This document shows positions 14,128-24,047 of a stretch of DNA of 33,055 bases, piece by piece. How positions within the stretch are numbered: the stretch's first letter is position 1; the number at the start of each line of letters is the position of its first letter. A program made the translations under genes and the position numbers. The notes below the pieces were generated by a model, which was given only the letters and a program-made list of their open reading frames with translations, ran no database searches and was not told the origin of the DNA. This DNA comes from Akkermansiaceae bacterium (GTDB taxonomy: Bacteria > Verrucomicrobiota > Verrucomicrobiia > Verrucomicrobiales > Akkermansiaceae), in assembly GCA_903919975.1 (NCBI GenBank), contig CAIXKE010000100.1, positions 1-33,055 of the forward strand, written 5' to 3'.

Positions 14128-16194
14128 ATGATTCATCCGCCATTCAAAGCTCCTTCACTGGAGACCATGGGCACACTTTTGCCAGCTTTCGAATTCATCT
14201 TCCTGCTCGCATCTGACGAATTCGGCGCCGTTTACCTATCAAACCAACGATCACTCGGCCGCGACGTCGCCATCAAAATCCTTGCGCCGCACGTCAGCGA
14301 TGACCCGCTATCCAAGTCCCGATTCGAAAGCACCTGCCGCTCAATGGCGCAGCTGAATCATCCCAATCTGGTCGGCATCTACAACTCGGGCAGTATCGAA
14401 GGGATGCTCTATTTCGTCATGGAATACGTTCCGGGCAAATCCCTCGGACATTCCACCAAGGGCAAGCCCATTGATTTCAAACAAGCCCTGCTCCTTGCCG
14501 AGGGCATCTGCGCCGGTCTCGTCCACGCCCACCACCACCAGATCGTCCACGGCGATCTTAATCTACGGAACATCCTGCTGAATAATAAAGCCGAACCCAA
14601 ACTCACCAATTTCGGCCTCTCCCATCATAACGACAAGTCCACAAACCCCTCCGTCATCACCTCCCGGTTCGTCGCCCCGGAAGTAATCCGCTATGCCGGC
14701 CCAACCTCGCCCCAATCCGATATTTTTTCGCTGGGAGCCATCCTTTACGAACTGATCACCGGCAAACCCCACCGCGCGGACGCGCCGCCGCCCTCGACGC
14801 TATCCGAATGCGGCCCGGAAATTGACGCCATCTGGCGCCAAGCCACCCACATCGATCCCAGCGAGCGCACACCCGATGCTATCAACCTCCAAGCGGCGCT
14901 CACCGCCGCAAGTGCCGGGCCCAAACCCAAGGCCAAGACTCCCATGGCCACCACCGCCCTTAAACCGGTCTTACGACCGCAATCGGCTTCCCCGAACAAT
15001 CGAAAACTCTCTCTCACCCCCAACAGTAAGGCGCTTTCCGCCTCTCATAACACCCCTCCCACAACATTAAAGGTCGGCTTTAATTGGACGCTGGCTCGCA
15101 ATCTCTTCATCATCGCCGGCCTTCTTTACGCCATTAAAATCGCCTGGAGTTGGCACCAAGAAGCCGACCAGAAGCGCAATAACACCTCGCAGCAAACCCC
15201 TATCATCGCAAAAAAAACCAAGCCCGAGATCAATCGCCCGCTCACACCAGACCCTTCGACGCGTCCGCCCATCGATCCCTCTAAAAATCCCGCACCGCCT
15301 AAACCCATCGTCTCAACCACGCCTGGTTCCCCAGCCGAATCCCTCGCCCGCCTTCGCGATGCCTTAGCCGCGGGAAAACGAGACGAAATGCCCGTCGGCA
15401 GCATTCGCAGAGGCCCAAACGATTATTTTGTCGTCCCCGAGCCCATGACTTGGCCGGACGCTACATGGTTTGCCGAGCAACACGGTGGCCACCTCGCCAT
15501 CCCATCCACCACCGCACCTCTCAGTTGGCTCATCGACCAGTCAACCGCAGACGATGATGTCTGGCTCGGCGCTGCCAGAAACGGACTCAACTCTTGGGCC
15601 CTTGCTGATGGCACCGCCTGGCCACCCAAAAAACAACCCAGCGGCATCGGACATTACCTCGCTGCCGACAAACATGGATTCCTAAAGGCTGAAAATGGGA
15701 AAACTACCCATCCATTCATTATCCAATGGCATTCCGATGGCTCAAATCCCGGCGCGCTCGCCACTTTGCTCGCCTCCACCCGCAACTCGCTGACCCAACC
15801 CAATCCCAAGTTCCCCCCCGGAACCCGGACCTACGGCATTCGCCATTACCTTTTCGTATCCCGGCCCTTCAATTGGCAGAATGCCGCCGATCTCGCTAAT
15901 GCCGCCGGCGGCCACCTCGCGGTCTCTTCCTCCATCGCCGAAATATCCAATATCGGAGAAATGACCAATGATCTTAATGCGAAAAATGGCATCTGGCTTG
16001 GCGCATCCCTCCAAAAAAATCAGTGGCAATGGATCACCGGCGAGCCTTGGAAGGAACCCAAATGGGCGGATGGCACCAACACCACACTCGTGGATTCAGC
16101 CCTGATCATTCACCCGGGAAACGGTTGGCATACACAAAATGTCACAGACCACGCCTCCGGATTCATCATCGAGTGGAGCAACGACCGAAAATAA
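14128..16194 (+). CDS. Membrane pseudokinase with two C-type-lectin-like domains
   Basis: A 688-residue protein. Residues 20-280 follow the Ser/Thr kinase fold: the strand-3 Lys50 in DVAIKIL, helix-C Glu67, VMEYVPGKSL, and an APE-like VAPEV. The glycine loop has become ASDEFGAVY, the catalytic loop is HGDLNLRN (141-148, Lys replaced by Asn) and DFG has become NFG (161-163), removing the Mg-binding Asp. This suggests a pseudokinase. A single membrane helix spans about 325-345 and a Pro/Thr-rich linker follows. Two C-type-lectin-like units, about 432-535 and 568-685, each have a GGHLAxxS motif and a WLGA strand, the second with QWQWITGEP. It is likely an outside-facing sensor. It is paralogous to the next gene, whose motifs are intact, and the two are probably transcribed together. 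Confidence 0.82.
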   Translation: MIHPPFKAPSLETMGTLLPAFEFIFLLASDEFGAVYLSNQRSLGRDVAIKILAPHVSDDPLSKSRFESTCRSMAQLNHPNLVGIYNSGSIEGMLYFVMEYVPGKSLGHSTKGKPIDFKQALLLAEGICAGLVHAHHHQIVHGDLNLRNILLNNKAEPKLTNFGLSHHNDKSTNPSVITSRFVAPEVIRYAGPTSPQSDIFSLGAILYELITGKPHRADAPPPSTLSECGPEIDAIWRQATHIDPSERTPDAINLQAALTAASAGPKPKAKTPMATTALKPVLRPQSASPNNRKLSLTPNSKALSASHNTPPTTLKVGFNWTLARNLFIIAGLLYAIKIAWSWHQEADQKRNNTSQQTPIIAKKTKPEINRPLTPDPSTRPPIDPSKNPAPPKPIVSTTPGSPAESLARLRDALAAGKRDEMPVGSIRRGPNDYFVVPEPMTWPDATWFAEQHGGHLAIPSTTAPLSWLIDQSTADDDVWLGAARNGLNSWALADGTAWPPKKQPSGIGHYLAADKHGFLKAENGKTTHPFIIQWHSDGSNPGALATLLASTRNSLTQPNPKFPPGTRTYGIRHYLFVSRPFNWQNAADLANAAGGHLAVSSSIAEISNIGEMTNDLNAKNGIWLGASLQKNQWQWITGEPWKEPKWADGTNTTLVDSALIIHPGNGWHTQNVTDHASGFIIEWSNDRK

Positions 16195-16309
16195 GCAGGC
16201 CCACCTCGCCCTGCACTTACCACGCCCCCCACTTCATTACTGTTGATATTCATATCTCCAGTGATTATTGAACTGCGGCATCACCATCGCAAATGCCTCA
16301 TTTCTGTCC

Positions 16310-18079
16310 ATGAGTGATTCCGCTCCGAACGCTGCCTTCCTGGCGCCTGAACCCTCCGAACTCGCACCCCTTTTCCCGGGATACGAGATTGAAATACTGA
16401 TTGCCTCCGGCGGCATGGGCGCGGTCTACCGCGCTATCCAGAAATCGCTCGATCGCACCGTCGCCATCAAAATTCTGCCCCGCGAATTCAGCAACGACGC
16501 CGCGTTCTGCGCCGGTTTCGAAGCCGAAGCCAAGGCCATGGCGCGCCTTAACCACCTCAATCTCGTTGGCGTTTACGACTTCGGCGAGGTGAACGGAATG
16601 CTCTACATCGTCATGGAGTATGTCGCGGGCAAATCCCTCTTCCATTCCTCCAACGGCAGAGCCATCGATCCCTCCGAAGTCATCCGTCTCGTCACCGGCA
16701 TTTGTGAAGGACTCGCCCACGCCCACGAAAATGGAATCCTCCACCGCGATATCAAACCTTCTAACATTCTTCTCGATCCAAACATACAACCGAAAATTGG
16801 CGACTTCGGTCTTGCCCGGCCAATTGAAACCACAATCCAAGAAGGTGAGGAAATCTTCGGCACTCCCCATTACACCGCTCCGGAAGTCGTCGACTCTCCC
16901 AACTCGGTCGATTACCGCGCCGACATCTTCTCGGTCGGCGTGCTGCTCCACGAATTACTCACGGGACGCCTCCCCGCCGACGACCCCCGCTCCGCCTCGG
17001 CTATCAGCCATTGCGATCCCCGCTTTGACGCCGTCATCCGCCGCGCCACCCATCACAAACCGGAAGGCCGCCACAATAGCGCTTCTGAAATCGCCCAGGA
17101 CCTCCACAACATTGCCAATACAGCTGGCCCCAGAGTCTTGAGAACCGCAAGACCCGCCAATCCCAGAAACCTCTCGCGCACGGCAACCACCACCCGCCAT
17201 TTCACCAAACCCAAGTCCTCCGGTTCTCCATTCATCATTTTCCTCATCATCGCCATCATCGGTGGCGCCATCGCCTACCTGTTACTTTCTAACAAACATA
17301 TCATCGCTCCCACTCCGCCTGCTACCAAGCCTACCCTCCCACAACCTAACCAAAACCCATCGCTACCGGACACCTTACACGCGCAGCAACAGAAGAAAGA
17401 ACAACAACGGGAACGAGAACGGGAACGAGAACGGGAACGAGAACGGGAGCAGCAATGGGAACAGCAAAGACAACAACAACAACAACAACAACAACGAGAA
17501 CAGGAACGAGAACAGGAACAACGGGAACAGCAAAGAGAACGGGAACAACAACAGCAGGAACAGAGCATCTCAGCCGGACCCAAATTCGATATTGCCCCAT
17601 TTTTCGAACGGGGCCGCGCTATTATGTATGAGCAGGCCTTGCCTCTGATTGCCACCCGCGACCGGGATTTAAAGAAAAATCTCACCCATTTTGAACACGA
17701 GGCCAGACGACTGCTGCGCAAACCCGGATCCAATGACAGAGAGCGGGAAATGGCCAACGAAGAGCTCGACAGTTTAATCAAGGACAGTGAAGAAAATCAC
17801 AACCGCATTGATGCGGAACTCCACAAACGCTTGAAAAAACGTGATCGAGTAGAGGATCTCTATGAGGAGTGCCGCGACAAGCAGACTGAGATCGACCTCG
17901 TTCTCAAACAATCTCTCACTCAGCTCTCGAGCACATACATCCTCGGCCTCCAAAAACAAATCGAACGCCTTCAAAAAGAGAAGGACCCCGACGCGATCCA
18001 GATCATCGAGGAGGAAATCAAAAAAACCCGCGAGGATGAGACGTATTTCCCGGATCTCATGCTCAATCATCCGGAGTGA
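16310..18079 (+). CDS. Membrane Ser/Thr protein kinase with Gln/Arg/Glu-repeat coiled coil
   Basis: A Hanks-type kinase of 589 residues. The catalytic set is intact: glycine loop IASGGMGAVY, Lys54 in VAIKIL, HRDIKPSN (145-152), DFG (165-167), APEV and the YRADIFSVGVLLHELLTG helix. A membrane helix lies at about 307-327, then a Pro-rich linker, then a low-complexity Gln/Arg/Glu tract at about 360-419, then about 160 charged residues with heptad character (coiled coil) up to the end. The ATG at 16310 is preferred; a TTG at 16268 is in frame. The kinase domain is close to that of the preceding pseudokinase (shared GMLY.VMEYV.GKSL), so the two arose by duplication. Targets are unknown. Confidence 0.9.
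   Translation: MSDSAPNAAFLAPEPSELAPLFPGYEIEILIASGGMGAVYRAIQKSLDRTVAIKILPREFSNDAAFCAGFEAEAKAMARLNHLNLVGVYDFGEVNGMLYIVMEYVAGKSLFHSSNGRAIDPSEVIRLVTGICEGLAHAHENGILHRDIKPSNILLDPNIQPKIGDFGLARPIETTIQEGEEIFGTPHYTAPEVVDSPNSVDYRADIFSVGVLLHELLTGRLPADDPRSASAISHCDPRFDAVIRRATHHKPEGRHNSASEIAQDLHNIANTAGPRVLRTARPANPRNLSRTATTTRHFTKPKSSGSPFIIFLIIAIIGGAIAYLLLSNKHIIAPTPPATKPTLPQPNQNPSLPDTLHAQQQKKEQQREREREREREREREQQWEQQRQQQQQQQQREQEREQEQREQQREREQQQQEQSISAGPKFDIAPFFERGRAIMYEQALPLIATRDRDLKKNLTHFEHEARRLLRKPGSNDREREMANEELDSLIKDSEENHNRIDAELHKRLKKRDRVEDLYEECRDKQTEIDLVLKQSLTQLSSTYILGLQKQIERLQKEKDPDAIQIIEEEIKKTREDETYFPDLMLNHPE
17389..17565 (+). repeat. Hexa- and trinucleotide repeat tract in kinase gene
   Basis: Tandem GAACGG/GAACGA hexamers, a (CAA)n run and interspersed GAACAG units encode alternating Arg-Glu and poly-Gln. 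All units are multiples of three, so length change alters the coiled-coil arm without breaking the frame. Confidence 0.85.
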
Positions 18080-18183: not shown

Positions 18184-20178
18184 GTGCCATCCCACACGAA
18201 CGATTCCCCAGCCATCCGCCTTCACGGCTGCCGCCAACACAACCTCCAAAACCTCGACCTTGAGATCCCACTCGGGAAACTCACCGTCGTCACCGGCCCA
18301 TCCGGCTCAGGCAAATCCTCCCTCGCTTTCCACACACTCTATGCCGAGGGTCAACGCCGCTACGTCGAGACTTTCTCGCCCTACGTCCGACAGTTCTTCG
18401 ACCGCATGGACAAACCGGATGTCGATTCCATCGAAGGCATCCCTCCGGCCATCGCCATCGAGCAAAAAAACCACGTCCGCACCACCCGCTCCACCGTCGG
18501 CACCCTCACGGAAATCAACGATTACCTGAAACTCCTCTTCCCCCGCCTCGCCACCGCCTACGATCCCAACACCGGCGAAACCATCCAGCCGGACTCCCCG
18601 GAATCCGCCGCCGCATGGGCCATGCAAAACCTCGCCGGCCAGCCCGTCCTCATCACGTTTCCCATTCCCATCCCCCCCGGCACCAAAACGGAGGAACTCT
18701 TCCCCTTCCTCAATCAACAAGGATACCTCCGCATCCTCATCAACGGCGAAGTCATCCGTACCGACGAAAACTGGAGCGCGGAATTCATTCCGCCCGTCAT
18801 CCAAATCCTCCAAGACCGCATCACCCTCACCCCCAAAAATAAAACCCGCCTACTAGAAGCCCTCGAAGCCGCCTTCCACCTCGGCAAAGGCCACGCCACC
18901 GTAGCTGGAGCGTCTCGCTCCAGGCCGTCCGAGGAGCGTCTCGCTCCAAGTCTTTCCAAATCCTTCTCAACCACCTGGCACAATCCCGCCACCGGCTTCA
19001 CCCTCCGTGCCCCCACCCCCGCTCTCTTCTCCTTCAACTCCCCACTCGGCGCCTGCCCCACTTGCCGCGGCTTCGGCCGCATCATCGGCCTCGACCTCGA
19101 AAAAGCCGTCCCCGATCCCTCACTCTCCATCGCTCAAGGCGCCATCAAACCCTTCCAAGGCGAACGCGGCGATGAATGCCAGCGCGACCTCCTCCGCTGC
19201 TGCAAGGAACGCGGAATCAATCCCAAAACCCCATGGGAAGACCTCTCCGAGGACGAACACGAATGGATCTACTACGGGGATCGTAAAACCAACGAAATCA
19301 CTCCGGACGAACTCGAAGCCCTCTGGCAATCCGGCGAATGGTATGGCGTCAAAGGCTTCTTCGATTGGCTCGAAACCAAAGCCTACAAGATGCACGTCCG
19401 CGTCTTCCTCTCCCGCTACCGCTCCTACACCACCTGCTCCGCCTGCCGCAGCAAACGCCTCCAACCCGAAGCCCTCTGCTTCAAAATCAACGGCCTCACC
19501 CTCCCCGACCTCTGGTCCCTATCCATCTCCGATCTCCTCCCATGGTTCCAAAATCTCAAATCCAAAATCCAAAATCAGCAATCAGCAATCAGCAATCATG
19601 CCCCCCCCGATCCCACCCTCAACCTCGTCCTCACCGAAATCTCCTCTCGTCTTTCCTACCTCAATCAAGTCGGCCTCGGCTACCTAACACTCGACCGCCC
19701 CACCCGCACCCTCTCCGGCGGCGAGGTTGAGCGCGTCAACCTAACCACCTGCCTCGGTGCCTCCCTCACCGGCACCCTATTCGTGCTCGATGAGCCCACC
19801 GTCGGTCTCCACGCCCGCGACATCCAAAACCTCGTCGGCGTCATGCACGGCCTCCGCGACAAGGGCAACACCCTCGTCGTCGTCGAGCACGAACAAGCCG
19901 TCATGCAAGCCGCAGACCACCTCATCGACCTCGGACCGGCGGCGGGGCGACTCGGGGGTGAACTCGTATATCAAGGACCGCCGCCGGAAGTGAGCAGTGA
20001 TCAGTTAGCAGTGATCAGTGAAAAGAAAAAGACCAAACGCACCAACCCACCACTGCTCACTGCTCACTCGGCACTTTGCCTTGGCTCTCCGGCCAAAAAT
20101 CCATTCCCGTTCCGAAAACCCGCCGCAAACCCACCCAAAAGCTCATCCAAATCCGCGGCGCCACCCGCCATAACCTGA
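18184..20178 (+). CDS. uvrA: UvrA, 5' part (ABC module 1), frame-broken
   Basis: Nucleotide-excision-repair damage sensor and ATPase; this part is the first ABC module of a double-length UvrA. Seen: a GTG start, AIRLHGCRQHNLQNLDLEIP, Walker A GPSGSGKS, EGQRRYVETFSPYVRQF, the GACPTCRGFGR and TTCSACRSKRLQPEA zinc pairs, signature LSGGEVERVNL, Walker B VLDEPTVGLHARD and VVVEHEQAVM. The first zinc module (Cys-X2-Cys twice) present in module 3 is lost here; the matching positions read YDPNTGE and HNPATG. Short repeat inserts lie at 18773, 18901, 19552 and 19990. Module 1 is complete; after 20022 the frame runs through a heptad insert and then through out-of-frame uvrA sequence to a stop at 20178, while modules 2-4 continue one frame over. 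The gap to the kinase gene is about 100 bp. Confidence 0.9.
   Translation: MPSHTNDSPAIRLHGCRQHNLQNLDLEIPLGKLTVVTGPSGSGKSSLAFHTLYAEGQRRYVETFSPYVRQFFDRMDKPDVDSIEGIPPAIAIEQKNHVRTTRSTVGTLTEINDYLKLLFPRLATAYDPNTGETIQPDSPESAAAWAMQNLAGQPVLITFPIPIPPGTKTEELFPFLNQQGYLRILINGEVIRTDENWSAEFIPPVIQILQDRITLTPKNKTRLLEALEAAFHLGKGHATVAGASRSRPSEERLAPSLSKSFSTTWHNPATGFTLRAPTPALFSFNSPLGACPTCRGFGRIIGLDLEKAVPDPSLSIAQGAIKPFQGERGDECQRDLLRCCKERGINPKTPWEDLSEDEHEWIYYGDRKTNEITPDELEALWQSGEWYGVKGFFDWLETKAYKMHVRVFLSRYRSYTTCSACRSKRLQPEALCFKINGLTLPDLWSLSISDLLPWFQNLKSKIQNQQSAISNHAPPDPTLNLVLTEISSRLSYLNQVGLGYLTLDRPTRTLSGGEVERVNLTTCLGASLTGTLFVLDEPTVGLHARDIQNLVGVMHGLRDKGNTLVVVEHEQAVMQAADHLIDLGPAAGRLGGELVYQGPPPEVSSDQLAVISEKKKTKRTNPPLLTAHSALCLGSPAKNPFPFRKPAANPPKSSSKSAAPPAIT
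18773..18796 (+). repeat. Intragenic palindrome in uvrA (GCGGAA-TTCA-TTCCGC)
   Basis: CTGGAGCG is followed by a 6-bp stem (18778-18783 with 18788-18793) around TTCA, then CCG. The same design recurs at 20881-20906 (stem 20888-20893 with 20898-20903), also in uvrA. They are translated as WSAEFIPP and TGARDSSRP, that is, in different frames. Confidence 0.65.
18901..18950 (+). repeat. GTCTC-loop hairpin doublet, copy A, inside uvrA
   Basis: Two hairpins with identical GTCTC loops: stem CTGGAGC/GCTCCAG at 18905-18923 and GGAGC/GCTCC at 18933-18947, joined by GCCGTCCGA. It is translated as [17 protein letters not shown]. It interrupts the domain between the ATP site and the zinc module. Confidence 0.8.
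19552..19598 (+). repeat. Heptad array inside uvrA (ATCCAAA / ATCAGCA units)
   Basis: Seven successive 7-bp units beginning ATC (ATCTCAA, ATCCAAA twice, ATCAGCA three times, then ATCATGC) encode KSKIQNQQSAISNHA. The array sits just before the signature region of module 1, where UvrA normally has a short linker. Confidence 0.75.
19990..20075 (+). repeat. Heptad hairpin insert 1 in uvrA, site of the frame break
   Basis: The left arm is GTGAGCAGTGATCAG-type heptads (19990-20019), followed by a purine stretch (20020-20031), a spacer, then the right arm of ACTGCTC heptads (20050-20070) complementary in type to the left. It follows the codons for VYQGPPPE at the end of ABC module 1. Frame 3 opens at 20022 and frame 1 closes at 20178, so the frame change must lie between them. 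Adding one 7-bp unit here makes the two frames continuous. Confidence 0.8.
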
Positions 20179-23100
20179 AGAAACTCGACGCCGATCTCCC
20201 GCTCGGCCTCTTCCTCTGCCTCACCGGCGTCTCCGGCTCCGGCAAGTCCACCTTCGCCCACGATGTCCTCTATCTCAACCTCGCCCGCAAGCTTGGCCAG
20301 GATGCCGTGGGCGACGCCGCGCCCATCAAATCCCTCAACGGCAGCCAACATCTATCAGGCGTCGAACTCGTCGATCAATCCGCTGTCGCTCGCACCCCCC
20401 GCTCCACCCCCGCCGTGTTCCTCGGTGCCTTCGATCCGATCCGCCAACTTTTCTGCGAAACAGAAGCCGCCAAATCCGCCGCCCTCAAACCCGGCTTCTT
20501 CTCCTTCAACTCCGGCGATGGCCGCTGCGACCGCTGCGCCGGCAACGGCTTCGAAAAGGTCGAAATGCAATTCCTCTCCGACCTCTACGTCACCTGCCCG
20601 GACTGCAACGGCCGCCGCTACAAATCCTCCACCCTTGAATACACCCTCGAAGCAAAATCCATCGCCGACATCCTGGATCTAACTACCGACGAAGCCATCA
20701 CCTTCTTCTCAAGGAGCGTTGGCGTCTCGCCAACGGGCGCGAAGCGCCGGAAACAAATCATCCAACTCCTCACCCCCCTCGTTCAAGTCGGCCTCGGCTA
20801 CCTCAAACTCGGCCAACCGCTCAACACTCTCTCCGGCGGCGAATCCCAACGCCTCAAACTCTGCCAACTCCTCGCCACAACTGGAGCGCGGGATTCATCC
20901 CGCCCGAAGCTCTTGATTCTCGATGAACCCACCACCGGTCTCCACTTCTCCGACATCGAAAACCTGCTAGAAGTCTTTCAAAAACTCGTCGATTCCGGCC
21001 ACACCCTGCTCGTCATCGAGCACAACTTCGAAGTCATCAAATCCGCCGACTGGATTCTCGACCTCGGCCCGGAAGCCGGTAAACACGGCGGTCAACTCGT
21101 CGCACAAGGCCCACCCGAAGAAATCGCCAAACTCAAAACCCCCACCGCCGAGTTCCTCAAAAAATCCCTCGTAGCTGGAGCGTCTCGCTCCAGGCCGTCC
21201 AAGGAACGTCTCGCTCCGTCTCCAAATCCCCCAATCCCAAATCCTCAATCTCAAATTTCTCTAAAAGGTGCCCGCCACCACAACCTCAAAAACATCTCCA
21301 TCGACATCCCACGCGACCAATTCGTCGTCATCTCAGGCCTCTCCGGCTCCGGCAAGTCCACCCTCGCCTTCGACATCCTCTTCGCCGAAGGCCAGCGCCG
21401 TTTCCTCGACTCGATGTCCGCCTACGCCCGCCAATTCGCCGAGCAGTTGGAAAAACCCGAGATCGACCAACTCCAAGGCCTGCCGCCCACCGTCGCCATC
21501 GAACAACGCGTCTCCCAAGGCGGCTCGAAATCCACCGTCGCCACCGTCACCGAGCTCTGGAATTTCATCCGCCTGCTCTACTCGAAACTCGGCACCCTCT
21601 ACTGCCCGGATTGCCACGTCCCCGTCGAAAAACAATCCATCACCGCGATCGAAAACGCCATCAACCTCCACCTCAAAAAAGGCCCCGTCACCCTCTTGGC
21701 CCCCATCATCCGGGGCAAAAAAGGCTACCACACCGAGATCGCCGAGTGGGCGCTCAAACAAGGATTCACCCGACTGTTAGTCGATAAACAATTCAAAGAC
21801 GCCGACGGCTTCACCCGCCTCGAACGATTCAAAGAACACGACATCGATGTGGTGATTAAAGAAGTGAGCAGTCATCAGTCATCAGTGATCAGTGGAAGAG
21901 GAAGAGGAAGAAAATCTCCGCCCAAAGGCTCTTCACTGCTCACTGCTCACTGCTCACTCGGCGCTTCCATCGCAAGAGCGTTGGAAATCGGCAAAGGCCT
22001 CCTTAAACTCCTCACCGCCGACAAAAAATTCATCCTCCTCTCCACCCATTCCAGCTGCCCGTCCTGCAATCAATCGTTCGAGGAACTCGATCCCCGCCTT
22101 TTTTCCTTCAACTCCCCGCACGGCTGGTGCCCGAACTGCCGCGGCCACGGCCGCGTCCCGAAACGCCGTGCCCAATTCCTCGATACCTCACGCTTCGACT
22201 CCGTGCTCGAAGCCGAACTCGACGCCGACCGCGCCCTCGAGCGCATGGAAGACGATGAACTCGTCCAATGCCCCGCCTGCCAAGGCACCCGCCTCAACCC
22301 CACCGCCTCCGCCGTCCGGCTCCATGCAAGTGGCTGGGGAGTCTCGCCCCAGGCCGTCAAAGGTGCGTCTCGCCCCGAGTCTTCATTCTCAATCTCCTCC
22401 CTCTCCAACCTCTCCATCACGCACGCCGCCAACCATTTCACCAAACTCACCTTCACCGAAAAACGCCAGCAACTCATCGCCCGCGATATCCTCCCGGAAA
22501 TCCGCCAGCGTCTTTCGTTTCTTCAAGAAGTCGGTCTCGGTTACCTCCAGCTCGACCGCTCCGGCAACACTCTATCAGGCGGCGAATCCCAACGCATACG
22601 CCTCGCCGCCCAGCTCGGCTCGAACCTCCGCGGCGTGCTCTACGTGCTCGACGAACCCACCATCGGCCTCCACCCGCGCGACAACGCCGCCCTCCTCAAA
22701 ACCCTCATCAAACTCCGCGATCACGGCAACTCCCTCATCATCGTCGAGCACGACGAAGACACCATCGCCGCAGCCGACCACCTCATCGATCTAGGTCCCG
22801 CGGCGGGCAGGTTTGGTGGTGAGATTGTATATCAGGGGCCGCCGCCCCAAGTGAGCAGTGATCAGTCAGCAGTGATCAGTGGAAGAAAAAGAAAAGGCAC
22901 ATCCAAAGCCTCTTCACTGATCACTGATCACTCGGCACTGATCACTTCCTCTCCCACCCTCCGCGCGCTCCTCCACCCCCTCATCCACCCCACCCGCGGA
23001 TCACGCCGGGCAATCAACAAATCCCACCCACTCCTCACCCTCACCGGTTGCACCGCAAACAACCTTAAAAACATCACCGCCGCCATTCCGCTCGGCCGAC

Positions 23101-24047
23101 TCACTGTCCTAACCGGAATCTCCGGCTCCGGAAAATCCACCCTCATGCACCAATGCGTGGCGGCGGTTTTCAACCGCCAAGCCAAATCAAAACCTCCATT
23201 CGCCAAAGTCTCCGGCGAAAAATCCATCAAGGCCTGTTACGAAGTCGACCAATCCCCGATCGGCAAAACCTCCCGCTCCTGCCCGGCGACTTATGTCAAA
23301 GTCTTCGACCACATCCGCGCCCTCTTCGCCCAACTCCCGGAAGCCCGCATGCGCGGCTTCGATGCCTCCCGGTTCTCATTCAACACCGAAGGCGGGCGCT
23401 GCCCCGAATGCAAAGGCAACGGCCGCGTGAAGTTAGAAATGGATTTTCTGCCATCCACCTGGATCCACTGCGAATCCTGCAACGGCCAACGCTACAACCC
23501 CGCCACCCTCGAAGTCACCTTCCGCGAGAAAAACATCGGCCAAGTCCTCTCCATGACCATCGATGAAGCCGCCGCCTTCTTCGAATCCCAGCCACGCATC
23601 GCCGCCCCACTCAAGCTCATGGCCGACACCGGACTCAGCTACCTCCAACTCGGTCAACCCTCGCCCACCCTCTCAGGCGGCGAGGCCCAACGCATCAAAC
23701 TTGTCTCCGAACTCATCAAAGGCCGAGGCGCGAAAGCGCGCATCACCAATCTCCAATTTCAAATCTCCAATCTCTATTTAATCGAAGAACCCACCGTTGG
23801 CCTCCACCACGAAGACATCCGCCGCCTCATCGACATCCTCCACCGCCTCGTCGATGAAGGCCACACGGTCGTCGTCATCGAGCACCACATGGCCATCGCC
23901 GCCGAGGCCGACTGGATCCTCGACATCGGTCCCGAAGCCGGAGACGGCGGCGGCGAAATCGTCGCCCAAGGCCCGCCGGAAAAAATCATCGCTTCCAAGA
24001 AATCCCGCACCGCGCCGTTTTTGAAGGCGGCGCTGCGCCTCGCGTGA
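20076..24047 (+). CDS. uvrA: UvrA, 3' part (ABC modules 2-4)
   Basis: This continues UvrA in the -1 frame relative to the first part. The listed TTG at 20076 is only the first possible start in a frame that is open from 20022, so it is probably not a real start. Module 2: GVSGSGKST, zinc pairs [10 protein letters not shown] and [35 protein letters not shown]. Module 3: [17 protein letters not shown] with [19 protein letters not shown] with [35 protein letters not shown]. Module 4: [19 protein letters not shown] with [21 protein letters not shown] and Walker [14 protein letters not shown] (Glu replaces the usual Asp). Joined with the first part it is about 1,950 residues; without repeat inserts about 1,790, near the roughly 1,786 of chlamydial UvrA as I recall it. 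Confidence 0.9.
20714..20750 (+). repeat. GTCTC-loop hairpin pair inside uvrA module 2
   Basis: The GTTGGC/GCCAAC stem around GTCTC (20718-20734) is followed by GGCGC-GAA-GCGCC (20736-20748). It is translated as [13 protein letters not shown] between the 'EAITFF' helix and the helix before the signature motif. Confidence 0.7.
21171..21220 (+). repeat. GTCTC-loop hairpin doublet, copy B, inside uvrA
   Basis: Nearly identical to copy A and read in the same frame ([17 protein letters not shown]). The second hairpin has one mismatch. It lies in the linker between modules 2 and 3 and is followed at 21229-21262 by a heptad array of CAATCCC/CAAATCC-type units (translated [13 protein letters not shown]). 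Confidence 0.8.
21864..21962 (+). repeat. Heptad hairpin insert 2 in uvrA
   Basis: Left arm GTGAGCAGTCATCAG and related heptads, a GGAAGA purine tract, the spacer CTCCGCCCAAAGGCTC, and a right arm with one more ACTGCTC unit than insert 1. It is translated without a stop ([17 protein letters not shown]...[11 protein letters not shown]) in module 3, before ARALEIGKG. Confidence 0.8.
22329..22378 (+). repeat. GTCTC-loop hairpin doublet, copy C, inside uvrA, other frame
   Basis: A diverged copy of A/B with a CTGGGG/CCCCAG stem (22334-22339 with 22347-22352) and a second GTCTC-type loop. It is translated as [18 protein letters not shown], a different frame from A and B, so conservation is at DNA level. 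A weak heptad-like stretch follows to about 22410. Confidence 0.7.
22851..22950 (+). repeat. Heptad hairpin insert 3 in uvrA
   Basis: It follows VYQGPPPQ at the end of module 3, the exact counterpart of insert 1 in module 1. The left arm is almost the same as insert 1; then a GGAAGAAAAAGAAAA tract, ATCCAAAGCC, and a right arm of ACTGATC heptads. It is translated [19 protein letters not shown]...[12 protein letters not shown] without a stop. Confidence 0.8.
23157..23219 (+). repeat. Two palindromes inside uvrA module 4
   Basis: GGCGGTT-TTC-AACCGCC (23162-23178) and TTCGCC...GGCGAA (23199-23219) lie between Walker A and [11 protein letters not shown], a region where UvrA proteins vary in length. 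They are translated as [20 protein letters not shown]. Confidence 0.5.
23728..23776 (+). repeat. Palindrome plus heptad array before the module 4 Walker B
   Basis: GCGC-GAAA-GCGC (near 23728-23739) is followed by 7-bp units CACCAAT, CTCCAAT, TTCAAAT, CTCCAAT, CTCTATT. It encodes [17 protein letters not shown] directly before LIEEPTVGL and lengthens the usual linker by about eight residues. Confidence 0.6.

Follow-up and report, generated by a model that had tools for sequence, protein, structure and literature searches.

We analysed a stretch of 33,055 nucleotides from an Akkermansiaceae bacterium (assembly GCA_903919975.1, contig CAIXKE010000100.1, positions 1 to 33,055), hereafter called the window, in which the original prediction had placed two paralogous membrane kinases, head to tail. 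Two open reading frames (ORFs) indeed follow each other head to tail on the + strand (14128-16194 and 16268-18079), and a Pkinase domain is found in both of their products, P1 and then P2. The ORF of P2 opens at a TTG at 16268 and ends at 18079, but its likelier start is the ATG at 16310, where the alignments of its relatives begin. The membrane helices of both proteins are our reading of the single strongly hydrophobic stretch that follows each kinase domain, made by inspection rather than with a transmembrane predictor. The features are the following.

14128-16194, + strand: P1, transmembrane receptor pseudokinase with two C-type-lectin-like domains (CTLDs), 688 aa (ORF, Pfam, alignment of 11 proteins)
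14176-14925, + strand: pseudokinase domain of P1, about residues 17-266 (Pfam, AlphaFold2 model, VIA-align)
14206-14232, + strand: degenerate glycine loop LASDEFGAV (motif alignment)
14266-14277, + strand: retained VAIK with Lys50 (motif alignment; all 16 pseudokinases have the Lys)
14548-14571, + strand: catalytic loop HGDLNLRN, Lys lost and Asp kept (motif alignment)
14608-14616, + strand: NFG replacing DFG (motif alignment)
15091-15147, + strand: membrane helix of P1, residues 322-340 (hydrophobic stretch; helix 320-353 in the AlphaFold2 model)
15391-15744, + strand: CTLD1, residues 422-539 (profile against PDB chains; hhalign to CTLD2, 99.2%)
15814-16191, + strand: CTLD2, residues 563-688 (Pfam Lectin_C; profile against PDB chains)
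16310-18079, + strand: P2, active-looking transmembrane Ser/Thr kinase (ORF, Pfam, motifs)
17225-17287, + strand: membrane helix of P2 (hydrophobic stretch)
17398-17549, + strand: tandem-repeat DNA coding for a Q/E/R-rich stretch (DNA repeat detection)
17564-18076, + strand: C-terminal module of P2, read as helical, related to most P1 tails and missing from the window P1 (hhalign)

Kinase domains of P1 and P2

P1 has a Hanks-type Ser/Thr kinase fold, as indicated by its Pkinase score (126.5 bits against a cut-off of 31.7; 1.6e-36, and 2.3e-50 for P2) and by its match to the fold of PknA. Compared by VIA-align with PknA and PknB of M. tuberculosis, over what were effectively residues 7-266, its kinase domain gives Z values of 26.2 and 26.1, with 238 and 231 residues aligned at a root-mean-square deviation of 2.5. 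The model used was obtained with AlphaFold2 from a five-row alignment, and its mean confidence (predicted local distance difference test, pLDDT) is 53.9. The structure prediction suggested at the outset is good for the kinase domain, mostly at 69-95, and poor for the activation loop (residues 163-192, below 50) and the CTLDs (mostly below 50), because the five rows were no more than P1, P2 and three distant kinases. The model serves here for the kinase domain only, and nothing is concluded from it about the CTLDs. Both proteins score below the cut-off of 450 of the PASTA-kinase family NF033483 (173 bits for P1, 249 bits for P2), and no PASTA family is present among their Pfam matches.

When the catalytic motifs of the two proteins are aligned, the glycine loop reads LASDEFGAV in P1 and IASGGMGAV in P2, and the catalytic loop reads HGDLNLRN versus HRDIKPSN, so that P1 has lost both the HRD Arg and the catalytic Lys. 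In the alpha-C segment (ESTCRSMA versus EAEAKAMA), the residue which we take to be the alpha-C Glu is lost from P1. P1 has NFG where P2 has DFG, and the GTP before APE is gone from P1, while VAIK and APE are present in both. The only catalytic landmarks left in P1 are the VAIK Lys, the HRD Asp, the catalytic-loop Asn and APE. The losses announced by the original prediction, of the glycine loop, the HRDxK Lys and the DFG Asp, are therefore real, and they extend to the alpha-C Glu, the HRD Arg and GTP. P2, in agreement with the same prediction, carries the full motif set of an active kinase (VAIK Lys, HRDxK, DFG and GTPxYxAPE), which is incomplete in P1, and its catalysis appears intact. If a pseudokinase is defined by its sequence, as a kinase homologue that has lost at least one catalytic motif residue, P1 is predicted to be one (NFG, HGDLN).

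Lectin-like domains and tails

Both CTLDs of P1 are confirmed. Pfam Lectin_C is detected in P1, not in P2, at residues 582-660 (6.4e-8), which corresponds to CTLD2. CTLD1 has no Pfam match in the window protein, and a profile of 11 relatives detects it clearly. The profiles of these relatives match solved CTLDs, the strongest match being Ly75, a chain of many CTLDs over which the domains are summed (9.1e-19 for CTLD1, 3.2e-28 for CTLD2); the best single-CTLD chains reach 2.7e-9 and 1.2e-7, respectively. Furthermore, the CTLD1 profile matches the CTLD2 profile (hhalign 99.2%), and Lectin_C is found in 11 of 11 members of the P1 family at E up to 0.01. The profiles, like the motif test below, take in 11 of the 22 family proteins; the other 11 came to light later.

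Calcium-dependent sugar-binding C-type lectins are characterized by EPN/QPD and WND motifs. A glycan had been proposed as the possible ligand of P1, but a pattern search finds neither [EQ]P[ND] nor WND-type patterns in the 22 CTLDs of the 11 proteins, and each of these CTLDs contains only 0-2 Cys. As calcium and sugar motifs are absent and Cys is rare, P1 is unlikely to bind glycans in the classical, calcium-dependent manner. Its ligands may be proteins, lipids or glycans bound without calcium.

A further tail follows the CTLDs in 19 of the 22 P1 relatives, three of these being judged by eye. The window P1 ends directly after CTLD2, as do the proteins of G082 and G075b, and no tail-like sequence can be read in any frame past its stop codon. 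When 12 P1 tails are compared with 12 P2 tails, the two sets are related (hhalign 96.9%, E 1.3e-10); in each set, at most two of the 12 tails share a Pfam family, with weak matches. This relationship weakens the proposed contrast between a P1 with a sensor and a P2 with a long coiled coil in its place. The Q/E/R-rich stretch on which the coiled coil was based is present in P2, but it is encoded by a tandem repeat of the window DNA. Seven other P2 proteins show no such stretch, their linkers being rich in Pro/Glu, Asp/Ser or Ala/Pro instead. A long coiled coil as a conserved sensor of P2 was consequently rejected.

The P1 family and its loss of catalysis

A search of 73 genomes of the genus with the CTLD2 profile, at E up to 1e-38, yields 22 strong relatives in 20 genomes, the window P1 among them, and all 22 were read at the DNA level. 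This count omits weaker CTLD matches (G030:C225, which is a P2-clade kinase, G026:C242, G076, G070 and G023) and a kinase-less protein of G016. According to their motifs, 16 are pseudokinases, from 15 genomes, and six are intact, from five genomes. The original prediction had called for a check of whether the lost residues are conserved as lost, and the dead state is indeed kept in all 16 proteins: the glycine-loop GGM, the alpha-C Glu, the catalytic Lys and the DFG Asp are found in none, the HRD Arg is replaced by Gly in every one, and the GTP before APE is absent from all (against its presence in 10 of 10 intact relatives compared). VAIK Lys and APE are retained in 16 of 16.

It could be argued that P1 is not truly dead, and that it would bind a nucleotide through Lys50 and the Asp of HGD and perform a weak or altered transfer, like SelO and SidJ, whose transfer activity with unusual residues is mentioned in the main text of a review of the field (PMC12599244). 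The universal VAIK Lys and the HRD Asp, kept by the window protein and that of G020, would fit such an activity. Hidden catalysis nevertheless seems very improbable, given the residues missing from all 16 proteins and the loss of the HRD Asp itself from 14 of them.

Outside the genus, 13 of 286 class members, some of which belong to the genus, match the CTLD2 profile at E up to 1e-15, and all 13 are in the same family. Eighteen CTLD proteins were read in 17 stretches around these matches, 16 with a kinase domain and two without, and all 16 of these kinases keep, as far as their motifs tell, a VAIK-type Lys, HRDxK and DFG. No P1 orthologue was found in one scan of named genomes, which returned four distant kinases at 26-31% identity. 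The original prediction had named P1 orthologues with HRD, DFG and activity as an argument against itself, and this argument applies in part: HRD and DFG are retained by 6 of the 22 CTLD relatives in the genus and by all 16 CTLD kinases read from other genera, which look active and indicate that the dead state is derived rather than a trait of the family.

The phylogeny leads to a single event. In a tree of 37 rows, the P1 family of the genus forms one clade (24 rows, 100/99), with two CTLD-less relatives within it, and the 16 pseudokinases form one clade (100/100), so that the active or dead state changes once. With 20 additional rows from other genera, the pseudokinases are still one clade (100/100), nested among intact CTLD kinases. 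Both trees hold a selection of P2 rows, one partial duplicate row having been dropped from an earlier tree; within the pseudokinase clade, the branching is weak and G082 forms a long branch. On these sequence trees, the catalytic motifs were lost once, in one clade of the genus. As this clade is nested among intact CTLD kinases, the CTLDs are older than the loss of catalysis, and P1 cannot be said to have gained them along with it, as had been proposed.

Several other proteins deserve mention here. Three kinases of the P1 clade have no CTLDs (L019 in G006, L020 in G019 and L021 in G029), those of G019 and G029 having HSD for HRD; this absence is probably a secondary loss. Conversely, an intact kinase of the P2 clade in G030 (L094, 891-3425, 845 aa) matches the CTLD profile (5.2e-14), which suggests that recombination between CTLDs and kinases may have occurred more than once. 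A second degenerate-kinase lineage is made up of two short proteins (L077, 10616-11488, in G033 and L079, 6686-7702, in G004) with HGDI(R/H), SFG and no aligned APE, which are sisters (100/98) and stand apart from P1.

The dead domain might also be decaying. P1 would then be a degenerating receptor, whose kinase drifts after the loss and in which only the CTLD part matters, for binding, adhesion or as a decoy. The kinase is indeed more diverged among the 16 pseudokinases than among the six intact proteins (mean pairwise identity of 51% versus 78%), and proteins without a kinase domain exist. At the P1 slot of G016, a protein (L072, 5481-6782) has, by eye, a membrane helix, one CTLD and a tail, and in another genus two relatives of the P1 ectodomain consist of CTLDs without a kinase (L167, 3572-5320, in G323 and L171, 3589-5415, in G318). 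Compared with four intact P1 proteins of other genera, kinase identity falls from 64% for the intact members of the genus to 42% for the dead clade (44% for the window P1), but only from 43% to 38% for CTLD1 and from 37% to 36% for CTLD2 (42% and 37% for the window P1). In these alignments, the divergence is concentrated in the kinase domain, not in the CTLDs. Among themselves, the CTLDs are 46% and 49% identical in the dead clade versus 59% and 58% in the intact proteins, a difference for which the age of the clade may account.

Against simple decay, none of the 16 proteins has an interrupted frame in the domains that were read (that of G008 runs off the contig end within the tail), and 59 kinase positions are identical in 15 or all 16 of the pseudokinases, including Lys50, E99, G103, K104, L106, A183-P184-E185 and D198. 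In one pair (G005/G008), which lies outside the sublineage of the window, the ratio of nonsynonymous to synonymous substitution rates (dN/dS) of the dead domain is 0.105 (NG86) or 0.066 (YN00), compared to 0.116 and 0.117 for the kinase of P2 in these two genomes, 0.197 or 0.137 for the P1 CTLDs, and 0.19-0.46 for the P1 linker and tail. In this pair, the values indicate purifying selection on the dead domain. Weighed against the divergence described above, they are consistent with a constraint that is relaxed but real, which would fit a non-catalytic role, and decay is an improbable account of P1.

Relationship between P1 and P2

P2 is the next gene after 5 of the 16 pseudokinases (window, G020, G091, G086 and G082) and after 3 of the 6 intact P1 genes of the genus (G021, G026 and G018), both partners being intact in the latter. 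A CTLD kinase followed by a P2-like kinase is also found at three loci of other genera (G263, G328 and G357). The expected conservation of the pair is thus observed in part: P2 is present in 15 of the 15 pseudokinase genomes, but adjoins P1 in the five cases above. At a cut of E up to 1e-85, which lets in intact P1 kinases as extra rows, P2 is matched in 72 of the 73 genomes of the genus.

The pair of the window lies between a very long UvrA and two other neighbours, ThiL and a CPBP protease. The order ThiL-CPBP-[P1]-P2-UvrA, or pieces of it cut by contig ends, is found again in sister species. P2 adjoins UvrA in 9 of 20 stretches (G016, G020, G026, G010, G032, G035, G001, G009 and G023), several others of the 20 ending before UvrA or holding no P2, and it does so in G036 and G082 as well; a P2-like kinase adjoins UvrA in two other genera (G263 and G328). 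P2 is not beside UvrA in G018, and UvrA was not found in the fetched P2 flanks of G033, G004, G005 and G008. In the window, this tandem UvrA appears as two ORFs (18184-20178 and 20076-24047), which overlap and differ in frame. The same very long protein is one open frame in G032 (1920 aa) and G009 (1978 aa), and two ORFs again in G010 and G035. The double ORF of the window could be a natural split at a linker or an assembly frameshift.

Taken together with the motifs of P1, its ectodomain and the constraint on its dead domain, this arrangement leads us to favour, tentatively, a receptor pseudokinase acting without catalysis on P2 or on a P2-like kinase. Allosteric control of P2 by P1, as first proposed, is plausible. 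Under this reading, the ancestor would have been a CTLD-bearing membrane receptor kinase, whose gene shared a locus with that of its sister P2. The kinase domain lost its catalytic and substrate-binding residues once, within a single clade of the genus, and would have been kept as a non-catalytic signalling module. The two outer CTLDs could bind a protein or an envelope ligand, and this binding could alter the oligomeric state of P1 by way of its membrane helix. In the cytoplasm, the dead domain could then dock on a Hanks kinase that is active, P2 or a P2-like paralogue being the likeliest candidate, and turn it on or hold it off, in the manner of animal and plant pseudo-receptors. The anatomy of P1 and P2, their homology, the single loss, the residues retained and the constraint in one pair come from the data themselves; the class of ligand, the partner and the direction of control are what we infer.

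Several observations weigh against this reading. P2 is as common without a P1 pseudokinase, being present in 57 of the 58 other genomes of the genus, and its co-occurrence with P1 therefore says little on control of one by the other. Eleven of the 16 pseudokinases do not adjoin P2. In G004, a single contig, the two genes are about 485 kb apart; in the other cases they lie on separate draft contigs, or P2 is unseen in the fetched flank, which is short for G060 and G008. Six dead members, those of the window, G020, G091, G086, G080 and G082, adjoin P2 or lie at the old ThiL-CPBP locus; the other ten form one group (100/88) with no old-locus gene in the fetched flanks. G080 has its P1 at the old locus but its best P2 match on another contig, with two stop codons. 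The window P1 is devoid of the tail common to most P1 relatives and P2, which is one possible contact; if the two proteins normally meet through this outer module, the window pair cannot make that contact. The dN/dS values of the dead domain, moreover, come from a single pair outside the window's sublineage.

The tree adds a further difficulty. Among the 16 CTLD kinases of other genera, only four join the P1 clade (91/87; G323, G347, G290 and G313), six are on the P2 side (two in G338, and one each in G328, G357, G263 and G267) and the remaining six are placed elsewhere. CTLD receptors may thus be older than the split between P1 and P2, or domains may have been exchanged, and the idea of an ancient P1-P2 pair rests more on gene order than on the tree.

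P1 could alternatively be a scaffold or substrate that P2 phosphorylates, in the dead domain or the juxtamembrane region, and that then recruits an effector, the activity of P2 being unchanged. The kinase fold, the strongly conserved VMEFVPGKSL, the 2 to 6 Ser/Thr of each activation segment and the occurrence of P2 in every pseudokinase genome are compatible with such a role, for which the mycobacterial MviN, acting with PknB and FhaA, is a precedent in the main text of PMC12599244. By eye, however, the activation segments of the 16 proteins have no conserved phospho-acceptor, and we consider this scaffold unlikely.

Compared with known systems, the best sequence and fold matches are the Hanks receptor kinases PknB and PknA, which also have a kinase domain, one membrane helix and a C-terminal ectodomain. 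P1 differs from these in having CTLDs, and in its relatives a further module, in place of PASTA, and in being without catalytic residues. The combination of a kinase and a lectin fold is not new, as cyanobacteria contain C-type-lectin-fold domains joined to an N-terminal serine kinase, many of them diversified by retroelements (PMC7517822); the term pseudokinase is absent from the main text of that paper, and the likeness to P1 is one of description only. Pseudokinases of the Ser/Thr type are also known in bacteria, as families ActPs1-3, GLW, CP1, DYD and DLHK, which are Hanks-fold proteins like P1, several of them membrane-bound (O'Boyle et al., 2025; PMC12599244). From the descriptions in its main text, three tabulated ActPs3 members have VALT for VAIK, whereas P1 keeps the Lys, and the words lectin, verrucomicrobi and planctomyc do not occur there. 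According to the same text, MviN of M. tuberculosis resembles P1 as a membrane pseudokinase working with an active kinase, in its case PknB, but it is a peptidoglycan-synthesis protein that recruits FhaA, whereas P1 is a CTLD receptor. A bacterial CTLD pseudokinase was not found among the titles listed by our literature searches, although one could still be in print. P1 is a bacterial membrane pseudokinase of a kind already known, whose ectodomain and origin were not found in the literature searched.

In animals, HER3 is a receptor pseudokinase that switches on a partner kinase through its own, non-catalytic kinase domain. A similar activation is described for the plant receptor kinase EFR with BAK1 (PMC10473708). 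Both differ from P1 in being eukaryotic and in having unrelated ectodomains, and the effect of P1 on a partner is, unlike theirs, what we infer. A bolder proposal, more doubtful than probable, is that the dead CTLD clade, born from one loss of catalysis in a receptor-kinase tandem, is now a ligand-gated allosteric switch for its active sister, and would be a bacterial counterpart of HER3 and EFR.

Bacterial pseudokinases are described as largely unexplored experimentally (abstract of PMC12599244). In the P1 family, intact and dead relatives share one conserved locus in related species, and since intact members in and outside the genus set the direction of change, the effects of the loss of catalysis are testable by comparison and by domain swaps. 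Pseudo-receptors of animals and plants signal via a partner kinase, and the family would also provide a test case of whether a bacterial receptor can do so.

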